A model generated the notes under the pieces. That model was not told the origin of the DNA, did no database searches, and saw nothing but the letters and a program-made list of their open reading frames with translations. Below are positions 1 to 2,579 of a DNA stretch of 64,000 nucleotides, in pieces. Source of the stretch: an uncultured Trichococcus sp. (GTDB lineage Bacteria > Bacillota > Bacilli > Lactobacillales > Aerococcaceae). Position numbers and translations under genes: made by a program. Where the stretch lies: positions 812,501 to 876,500 of the forward strand of contig NZ_OY764015.1 in NCBI RefSeq assembly GCF_963667775.1, given 5' to 3'. Numbering within the stretch: position 1 is the first letter of the stretch; each line of letters begins with the position of its first letter.

Positions 1-44
1 AAACCGTACATGGAGCCATTGTTCAGGTTACCGAGCGAATGCCA
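1..44 (-). repeat. Probable DGR template repeat (TR), first 44 nt; runs off the window
   Basis: Read on the minus strand this stretch begins TGGCATTCGCTC, starts 54 nt after the stop codon of the receptor-binding gene, and continues past the window edge. It matches positions 196-239 inside that gene at 38 of 44 bases. All six mismatches are A in this copy (A to T once, A to G five times); none of the 35 non-A bases differs. The adenines are concentrated in AAC/AAT codons, as in template repeats of diversity-generating retroelements. No start codon with a ribosome binding site precedes it, so it does not look like the beginning of a gene. The reverse transcriptase is not visible and would have to lie beyond position 1. 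Confidence 0.8.
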
Positions 45-98
45 AGGAGCTGTGTCGTAAATCCTTTTTAAAACATGATGGGCTATGCCCCTCTTGGC

Positions 99-2579
99 TT
101 ACGCCAATTCACCCCGGCTGCGCCCGGTTGCAGAAAGGCGCCCCAGGATGAGCCAGCTCGAGTAACCAAGGCCATGGCCGCCAAGGACGCAGAAGAAACC
201 GTACACGGAGCCACTGCCCAGGCTACCGAGCGAAAGCCAGACGCGATAACCCGTTGTTGGTGCGTTTGTATAAACTCCGTCGGCAAAGCCTGTTGTACTT
301 GATGCAGCTGCGGCAACAGGAATTAGCGCGGTCGGATGATTCGGGTCGACGCCTAGCTTGCTGATGTACTGCCACGTATTGTTTGTTTGCGCCATCAGCA
401 CGCTTAATAGCTTGTAGTCCGCAGAAGGACTTCCGGCTTTGTACTGTTTGGCATCATAGCAAACGTATACCTTGATTTTGTAATCAAGCGGGTCGGTATT
501 GTCGTTGTAGATCATCAGGTTTTGGATGACTTCATATCCACCGACCATCGTTTCGATGCCGTTGATGATAAGCGGCTCTTTTCCGGATGTGTTACTGATC
601 GGCGAACCATCGTTCCCAAGTACGTTATCACACGCTCCGCTGCCCCACGGTACCGTTGTGATTGTCGTCGTGGCATTTGTATCAAAAGCAGGCGCATCCA
701 CGTTTACGGCTGAGTTTAACCCGTCCGGAAGCGCCACGATGCTTGTGATTTTGACACGGTTAGCAACGTTATGGACTAGCGCGTTTCCGCGATCATCCGT
801 TTTCGTGCCGCCGGCATAGTTACCGATCGAAACACGAGATCCGACTACCAGTGCATTTGCTTGCGCGTTGGTAAGTACGACACGGCTCACGCCCGACTCG
901 TAAATGGATGGTTGGTATTGCAAGTAATATGAAATACACCCTCTCATCACAGCTTCGGAGTTGGTTGTTGCGTATTTCAGGAATAGCATCAACTTCGTCC
1001 AAAAGTCGTCGTGGGTTGTTTTCCCGGAATATTGCTCCCCTTTTGCCTTGAATTTTGTGATTTGGCCATCATGCGACATGCTGTTGGATTCGGGATTAAC
1101 GCCGCTGATGGAGGCTAACTTGCCATCACCGCCCACTCCGGCGATGTATTTCGCGTGTAGCAAGAACGGACGAACGGTGCCGTCCGGTTTGACTGCCTCA
1201 GGCAGCACGGTGAAACCGGCATGCAATGTGTCGGAATACGAGTATCCCCATGTAGTTGGCGTGTCAAATCGCTTGATATAGCCAAGCATATTCATGATAT
1301 ACACGTCGCCGTTGGTTCCGTCGCGCTTGAAACGGGCATCACCCTTGATGGCGGTGATATGATAATCGTCGTTTGCGTCCACATAAGCGTTGACTTCCAC
1401 CGGTTTGAATAACCCGATGTTCGCGTAATCGTCTTGTCCGGCCACTAGATTCGTTGATGGCACGGCTACCAATCCGGCGTTAGCATCCTTTTTCGTTCCC
1501 GTTGGGGATGGGGAGACTTCGTAATTATTGAACTCGGTCGTGTAAATCTTTCCGTCACGATAAGCATCCCAATACTTCCCGACATTGACATATTCGCCTA
1601 GCGCTTTATCGTAGTGCATCGGTTCATCGTTTGATTCCAATTTCTTCACGCGGCCATCGAATGTTGTGACAATCGCGCTGTCTGCTTCTGCGCGCGTATG
1701 GTCAGCCTCTGCACGCGTGCGGTCGTTTGAAGCGGCCGTCCTGTCACTCGCTGCAGCCGTTCGGTCTTCCGCCGCCTTTGTGCGGTCTTGGCCAGCTAGC
1801 GTATGATCGGTGTCAGCCCTAGCGTGGTCGGTGTCTGCGCGGGAATGATCCTCATCGTAACCGGATTGCCTCAGGGCCTCCGCTGCACCAAAGTCGGTAT
1901 CCCTAGCGGATTCCGCGGCAGTATAGGCGTTCTGCCTAGCGGTTTGCGCATCGCTAAACGCCTTCGTTCGGTTCGTTTGATCTGTGTTAAAATTCTGTGT
2001 CCGACTTGTTTGATCTGCGTTAAACGCATCTGTTCGGCCTGTTTGCCCGGCCAGAAACGCGACGTTCCGGTCAAATTCGTTGTTATCGAACTCGGCTTCC
2101 CTGAGTATTTCGTTAGCCGCGAACTCGTCGATGTACGCGCGCGCCTCTCTTGTGAGCGTGGTCCAGTCGTGTATCATGATCTGTTGCGCTACTTGTGTTT
2201 CCAGTCCGTTAACGATCTCGAAGTCATAAAGTTGACTAGGGAAGTTTTGCTCATCTTCCAAACCTTCATTAAAGCGAACAACAAGTTGTATTCTCGCAAT
2301 CCCGGCATGATTACCCTCGTCCTCTTTTAACAAATAACTAAATGTAGTTCCTGTTAATTCAACATCCTCTTTCGGATTTTGGAAGAAAGAACCATCCCGC
2401 ATGTATAGCAGCGTTGTAGCCGTTGCGCCTGAAAGTTCGCCAGCCTGCATGTCCGTTACTTGGAACTGAAATTCGGCCGACCTTAAGTCATTCGTGTATA
2501 CAATAGGTCTAACTAGACTTCTTTCTATAGTTGTTGATCGAAGTTTTACTTGATACGGTATAATTTTCGGCGTTGCCAT
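99..2579 (-). CDS. BppU-type baseplate / receptor-binding protein, DGR target
   Basis: 826 aa. Residues 1 to about 150 resemble the N-terminal domain of BppU-family upper baseplate proteins, which anchor receptor-binding parts to siphovirus tails. Residues of about 155-320 are a long low-complexity coiled coil of short repeats (DQTxRTxxF, then RADTDH and AxDRTAA units). The C-terminal half is globular and ends with an INGIET..GGYEVI segment, an SSTTGFADGVYTN segment, and the motif SLGSLGSGSVYGFF followed by W..LGRLS. I associate this pattern with DGR-diversified C-terminal domains of Firmicutes phages. It is the last complete gene of the late operon in the window. The final 46 codons carry the variable repeat. 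The ATG at 2579 follows a good AGGAGTG site. BppU homology is firm for the N-terminus; the C-terminal ligand is unknown. Confidence 0.8.
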   Translation of the reverse strand: MATPKIIPYQVKLRSTTIERSLVRPIVYTNDLRSAEFQFQVTDMQAGELSGATATTLLYMRDGSFFQNPKEDVELTGTTFSYLLKEDEGNHAGIARIQLVVRFNEGLEDEQNFPSQLYDFEIVNGLETQVAQQIMIHDWTTLTREARAYIDEFAANEILREAEFDNNEFDRNVAFLAGQTGRTDAFNADQTSRTQNFNTDQTNRTKAFSDAQTARQNAYTAAESARDTDFGAAEALRQSGYDEDHSRADTDHARADTDHTLAGQDRTKAAEDRTAAASDRTAASNDRTRAEADHTRAEADSAIVTTFDGRVKKLESNDEPMHYDKALGEYVNVGKYWDAYRDGKIYTTEFNNYEVSPSPTGTKKDANAGLVAVPSTNLVAGQDDYANIGLFKPVEVNAYVDANDDYHITAIKGDARFKRDGTNGDVYIMNMLGYIKRFDTPTTWGYSYSDTLHAGFTVLPEAVKPDGTVRPFLLHAKYIAGVGGDGKLASISGVNPESNSMSHDGQITKFKAKGEQYSGKTTHDDFWTKLMLFLKYATTNSEAVMRGCISYYLQYQPSIYESGVSRVVLTNAQANALVVGSRVSIGNYAGGTKTDDRGNALVHNVANRVKITSIVALPDGLNSAVNVDAPAFDTNATTTITTVPWGSGACDNVLGNDGSPISNTSGKEPLIINGIETMVGGYEVIQNLMIYNDNTDPLDYKIKVYVCYDAKQYKAGSPSADYKLLSVLMAQTNNTWQYISKLGVDPNHPTALIPVAAAASSTTGFADGVYTNAPTTGYRVWLSLGSLGSGSVYGFFCVLGGHGLGYSSWLILGRLSATGRSRGELA
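196..239 (-). repeat. Probable DGR variable repeat (VR), matched part
   Basis: This is the part of the 3' end of the receptor-binding gene that can be aligned with the template copy at 1-44. It encodes residues 781-795, starting at a Trp codon. The rest of the variable region should run on towards the stop codon at 99, but its template lies outside the window. Upstream of the Trp codon, nucleotide similarity to the downstream copy is lost, which marks one repeat boundary. The location in the last 46 codons of a host-contact protein is the usual place for a DGR variable region. Confidence 0.8.

Follow-up and report, generated by a model that had tools for sequence, protein, structure and literature searches.

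At the left edge of a 64,000-nucleotide stretch of an uncultured Trichococcus sp. (contig NZ_OY764015.1; hereafter the window, corresponding to positions 812501-876500 of a genome that consists of one contig of 3,315,642 bases) lies what is almost certainly a complete, prophage-borne diversity-generating retroelement (DGR) of a known kind, in which the target gene with its variable repeat (VR), the template repeat (TR) and a reverse transcriptase (RT) follow one another on the minus strand and no gene for the accessory protein Avd is present. The TR straddles the left edge of the window, its full length of 109 nt being recovered in the extended genome. The features of the locus are given below, in window coordinates unless stated otherwise.

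99..2579, minus strand: DGR target gene (an open reading frame, ORF), encoding an 826-residue protein of tail or baseplate type, with the VR in its last codons.
131..239, minus strand: VR, 109 nt, in frame WLSLGSLGSGSVYGFFCVLGGHGLGYSSWLILGRLS, delimited by BLAST and alignment.
131..148, minus strand: GC-rich 3' end of the VR, resembling an initiation of mutagenic homing (IMH) sequence and assigned by position only.
76..115, minus strand: composite element following the VR, delimited by comparison, covariation and the models R1 (41.2 bits) and R2 (38.1 bits).
115-109, minus strand: GGGGTGA box of the composite element.
107-94, minus strand: hairpin 1, TTGGC-GTAA-GCCAA, with the target stop codon in its loop.
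93-77, minus strand: hairpin 2, GAGGGGC-ATA-GCCCATC, with one mismatch.
1..44, minus strand: first 44 nt of the TR, of which the remaining 65 nt are genome positions 812436-812500.
Genome approximately 812263-812304, left of the window: conserved core GTGGCTAGTAG...ACCGAACGTCAT of the spacer between TR and RT, with a covarying helix.

An earlier note on this DNA had reported two minus-strand copies, at 1-44 and 196-239, the former beginning 54 nt past the target stop codon (101-99), which differ at 6 of 44 positions, all of them among the nine A of the downstream copy (five A to G, one A to T); a recount returns exactly these figures, and the corresponding chance, C(9,6)/C(44,6), is recomputed as 1.19e-5. 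When window positions 1-1200 are compared with the genome by BLAST, a method without bias for A, the segment 131-239 recurs at genome 812436-812544 over 109 nt with 83% identity; read on the minus strand, the VR is window 239-131 and the TR is 812544-812436 (window 44 to -64). The two repeats differ at 18 of 109 positions, 17 of which are A in the TR and one C (position 104), while none of the 18 falls on an A of the VR (hypergeometric P = 1.8e-13); the substitutions from TR to VR comprise nine A to G, four A to T, four A to C and one C to T. All 18 affect codon positions 1 and 2 and together change 13 of the 36 encoded residues; AAY codons number nine in the TR. The only non-A mismatch brought to light by the extended alignment sits where it is expected, in the GC-rich, IMH-like 3' end of the VR, past which the similarity between the repeats stops. 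A chance repeat is ruled out by this concentration of differences at A of the TR. Two repeats beside a tail gene might also be taken for a duplicated gene end used in ordinary recombination, as in the switching of tail-fibre cassettes, without reverse transcription; the probability of this is negligible, such a reading being refuted by the fact that 17 of the 18 differences sit at A of a single repeat, by the adjoining DGR-type RT and by the 79 related loci that are arranged in the same way (see below).

The RT, which the earlier note had placed just beyond position 1, is indeed found there, as an RVT_1 frame of 433 open codons at genome 812371-811073, on the same minus strand as the target and carrying the motifs RYFVKGDIQK, IGSYLSQ and FYMDD. 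A profile built from 44 RTs retrieves first the solved structure 8ub7 (E 4.7e-28), whose title is that of a DGR ribonucleoprotein reverse transcriptase, and next the group II intron protein LtrA (4.7e-17); the AlphaFold model of the focal RT (mean predicted local distance difference test score 94.2), with a helical region in its N-terminal 80 residues, likewise has 8ub7 as its top structural match (E 2.6e-17). The enzyme beside the TR is thus of DGR type on both profile and structure matches, and the alternative of a group II intron RT is rejected by the rank of 8ub7 above LtrA in the former search and at the top of the latter.

As to the target, its C-terminal part belongs to PHROG 17147, and the predicted fold of residues 335-826 has as best structural match TaqVP (5vf4), the DGR variable protein of Thermus aquaticus; the variable domain of C-type lectin (CLec) type at the 3' end of the gene is therefore recognized through a predicted fold matching a solved variable protein; the earlier note had already judged the C-terminus to fit DGR target domains. 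The likeness extends over the C-terminal 492 residues with 15% identity, whereas the focal protein possesses an additional N-terminal part of 334 residues; a profile of the target matched no sequence of the PDB below E 0.6. The A-specific differences between the repeats, the adjoining DGR-type RT and the structural matches of RT and target together identify a bona fide DGR.

Scans with single proteins found no relatives of the RT; with an alignment of six RTs as query, 96 viral relatives came up, 80 of them being retained, together with 12 genome loci whose assemblies bear titles such as Clostridia, Eubacteriales or Blautia. At E 1e-20 the only match among 76 genomes of the host family was the own genome. 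Five phage records from human faeces, each with an RT, a relative of the target and its own TR/VR, complete a set of 97 loci (labelled L with a number below), in 79 of which TR and VR were detected; a similar target is found by blastp in 75 of these 79. In most, the VR starts some 160-280 nt before the TR, and 125-230 nt separate the end of the TR from the RT match. The VRs of 16 pairs of loci, several of which share a member, were compared, as the earlier note had advised. In eight pairs the longest match reaches an identity of at least 99%; the VRs are identical in two of these and differ in six, and in these six 45 of 46 VR differences lie opposite A of the TR (19 of 19 in L061/L062, and 4 of 4 in L028/L029, two viral records with one assembly number). 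The RT, the complete TR, the concentration of VR differences at A, the predicted fold of the target and the turnover of the VR among relatives thus agree, and the DGR claimed in the earlier note stands, with two changes, namely that the cassette contains no Avd gene and that the small hairpin noticed after the stop codon is part of a composite element.

Concerning the first of these changes, only the TR and the spacer lie between the target stop and the RT, the ORF listing giving there a single 66-residue minus-strand frame across the TR, and the avd gene that characterizes a BPP-1-like cassette is absent. In complete genomes, an Avd-like domain accompanies 62% of DGR RTs (PMC8934634). The Avd family PF05635 has a single match in the genome (211456-211761), 600 kb away and inside a different DGR; it was found in none of 24 records of relatives and in none of 31 records of loci from a pattern scan described below, many of the records in both sets being fragments. 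The order target-VR-TR-RT and the missing avd are traits of the 'lineage 3' that PMC7290462 cites from Wu et al.; in the same paper the DGR of the crAssphage LMMB is described with this order (with IMH after its VR and IMH* after its TR), a phage tail target and, in the available text, likewise no avd; an architecture without Avd is hence already published. The two differ in phage group and in target, and RTs of crAss type match the focal RT at about 26-29%. The focal cassette shares gene order and missing avd with 'lineage 3', of which it would be a candidate member. With the DGR of BPP-1 it has in common the A-specific VR, the RT fold, a structured spacer between TR and RT and a hairpin after the VR (PMC3240598 and PMC12875486); BPP-1, however, needs Avd, whose gene lies upstream of the TR, whereas the focal reaction would proceed without it. 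It is very unlikely that Avd is supplied in trans by the DGR at 212 kb of the genome: in that element a PF05635 gene does separate the VR from the TR, but VR turnover is seen in related DGRs, and PF05635 had no match in the 24 and the 31 records, which are in many cases fragments and were searched apart from their hosts.

This second DGR (L010, genome 210500-214500) has its VR at approximately 211279-211369, its TR at approximately 211807-211897 and its RT at 212247, with 12 of 12 mismatches at A; the Avd-type gene lies between the repeats. A third one (L009, genome 602000-606500) shows 16 of 16 mismatches at A, a 320-residue target, an RT at 603601 and, after the VR, the layout GGGGG-ACC-GGGGG-ATCTTT-CCCCC; the search of the genome for PF05635 found no such gene in it.

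The spacer between TR and RT, compared between the focal sequence and 17 relatives (18 in all), has a common core around an invariant AGTA, which in most reads GTGG.TAGTAG ... ACCGAA ... AGAAAG. Its 5-bp helix covaries, with 14 cells of two-sided change against 5.4 in shuffles (0 of 500 reaching this value). Since the spacer of BPP-1 folds and recruits the RT-Avd complex (PMC12875486), a similar RT-recruiting role, exerted without Avd, may be proposed for the focal spacer by analogy.

The second change concerns the GGGC-ATA-GCCC hairpin, which is present, as the earlier note had reported, lies at 80-90, and is one which comparison shows to be the second part of a larger element. Of 80 loci (the 79 and the focal one), 73 have a GGGTGA sequence in the interval between the repeats, 11-62 nt past the computed VR end, and 62 distinct copies show the layout GGGGTGA / stem 1 with loop / GAGGGG / loop / CCCC. 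In 34 copies, stem 1 shows 56 cells of two-sided pair change against 16.5 in shuffles, a value that none of 500 reaches, and versions of the stem slid along the alignment give 2-14; hairpin 2 is too invariant for such a test. Model R1, which matches its own source copies by construction, scores 41.2 bits at the focal element, the next best match in the genome having 16.2, and gives 66 matches over 100 sources, among which the window and L008 represent the same site and the match in L058 is likely due to chance. Model R2 was built from 28 other copies, the focal one and five more of alignment A5 (L023, L053, L079, L092, L104), poorly aligned ones among them, being left out; it nevertheless recovers the focal site at 38.1 bits. 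Rfam offered nothing convincing at the element, its best match being a snoRNA family (17.2 bits, E 1.5). An intramolecular triplex, in which GGGGTG would mirror GAGGGG, is unsupported by the lengths of the G runs (Spearman 0.21, p 0.055, 84 distinct elements). The GA / GA flanking stem 1 might alternatively suggest a kink-turn.

Efficient homing of BPP-1 needs a hairpin located 4-34 bp after the VR, with a GC-rich stem of 7-10 bp and a GRNA loop (Guo et al., PMC3240598). Hairpin 2 of the L042 type, GAGGGGGC-GAAA-GCCCCCTC, is of the same form and fits the BPP-1-type stem and loop; the focal GGGC-ATA-GCCC, with its ATA loop and one mismatch, is a weaker version, and focal hairpin 1 has a GTAA loop on 5 bp. 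The target signal described for BPP-1 is one 8-bp hairpin with a GAAA loop, while here a box and two hairpins are found. In the archaeal DUSEL4 DGRs a hairpin within the target gene has three-base GRA loops, like some loops of hairpin 1, whereas the available text of PMC4372165 describes neither a GGGGTGA box nor a second G-run hairpin. The composite element is undescribed in the literature covered on Avd-less DGRs and target hairpins, a coverage outside which Wu et al. 2018 and Handa et al. 2025 fall; the GGGGTGA box and hairpin 1 are, as far as we are aware, apparently new additions to the known hairpin signal.

Two stem-loops at a stop codon, followed in the focal case soon after by TTTT, could suggest that the element serves to end transcription or to direct processing where the gene stops, and is no homing signal. 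This is unlikely, if still worth consideration: the GGGGTGA and GAGGGG sequences are kept while stem 1 varies with compensation, few copies run into a T run (by eye), and, among 44 whole records searched with R1 at E 0.01, exactly one match is found in 36 and none in 8, of which L040, L042, L043 and L045 show a box or short-stem form by pattern; moreover, a terminator ahead of the TR would sever the TR transcript from the late operon.

Several observations weigh against an active, Avd-less DGR with a conserved composite target signal. At the RT start, the ATG usual in homologues (MKRYC or similar in many of them) aligns to ATA (genome 812236), and the in-frame GTG at 812245 lies three codons upstream, 190 nt beyond the TR, so that RT expression may be weak; this and the imperfect focal hairpin 2 would suit a decayed DGR, formerly active and now deprived of RT expression. 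Such decay is decidedly improbable, given that the 433-codon frame is open with its motifs, that the GTG is available and that ATA at this position is common to the relatives L020, which has no in-frame ATG, GTG or TTG upstream of it, and L022, which has a GTG. VR diversification is seen between relatives, activity of the focal copy being presumed; in the eight less similar pairs only 76 of 102 VR differences fall at A, and the family total of 1165 of 1210 mismatches at A does not represent an independent test, because the program used to detect TR/VR prefers mismatches at A and discards repeats that have few such mismatches. The search for accessory genes was limited to PF05635 among virus records that are often fragments, and another accessory protein is possible. 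Two of five covariation measures are not clearly above shuffles both for the element (stem 1 pairs with two-sided change, 4 against 3.9; pair types, 16 against 15.5) and for the spacer helix (3 against 1.9, reached in 85 of 500; 9 against 7.2, in 23 of 500). Finally, among five near relatives outside R2, the model finds L021 and L022, L100 in part (11.8 bits), and neither L020 nor L023.

On the preferred reading of an active DGR, the TR-containing transcript with its structured spacer would be copied by the RT with errors opposite adenines, and the resulting complementary DNA (cDNA) would take the place of the VR in the last codons of the tail-protein gene, so that the receptor-binding surface acquires a new specificity. 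The composite element directly after the VR would mark the 3' side of the target site, a role shown in BPP-1 for a simpler hairpin or cruciform. The cassette itself is an ordinary and clear DGR; its value resides in the composite target element and in the large phage family to which it belongs, with many members from the gut, in which the VR turns over without a visible Avd gene even though the BPP-1 model needs Avd. By comparison within the family alone, the signal at the target site proves to be more elaborate than the one hairpin known from BPP-1, and the element provides a compact sequence for the question of how the VR is recognized.

Layouts resembling the composite element also occur outside DGRs. 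A scan of 395 genomes of the order with R1 returned the own genome and two genomes of one genus, with four matches at 30-32 bits on contigs of 3-5 kb; the loci L122-L124 contain no TR/VR, and the proteins encoded in L122 and L123 were taken by eye for rolling-circle Rep proteins. R2, applied to 398 genomes of the phylum, gave besides the own site six other genomes at 23-28 bits, which are read as chance matches because the 3-kb loci around them contain neither an RT nor TR/VR; the plasmid resemblance is consequently only slightly above this ceiling of chance. Small plasmids of Streptococcus and others (L122-L124, L243-L245, L247) carry the layout GGGTGAATT-hairpin-AAGAGGG-loop-CCCT, which a script search did not find in L246; in L123, L124, L243 and L244 it stands directly before TCTTATCTTGATA, which we take to be the pC194-family nick sequence. 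It may be speculated, at a low level of credence, that the composite element is a recognition or priming site in single-stranded DNA, formed by folding of the coding strand at the replication fork and permitting uptake of the mutagenic cDNA without Avd, akin to the similarly arranged element that closely precedes the presumed nick site of the origin in small Streptococcus plasmids with Rep proteins; were this true, one host factor would serve both DGR homing and rolling-circle plasmids.

The pattern scan of viral contigs yielded at least 78 new loci; among the matches listed, a DGR-type RT accompanies 50, a VR immediately precedes the pattern in 45, and one or the other is present in 54, while the other 24 of the loci listed comprise some contig ends, some copies without a stem and a few well formed in other contexts. 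The last include L132, L146, L160 and L174, with a well-formed composite layout in places without a DGR, between genes resembling by eye those of phage terminase and portal in L160 and L174; these copies may represent an intergenic element that is repeated in their hosts. As regards neighbouring genes, a 119-residue ORF overlaps the RT end (L008 4224-4583, left of the window), ORFs of 100-116 residues with low identity occupy the same spot in L013-L016, and it is possibly an ordinary gene of the tail module; the 108-residue ORF downstream of the third DGR is similar by eye to a 112-residue ORF of the focal prophage.
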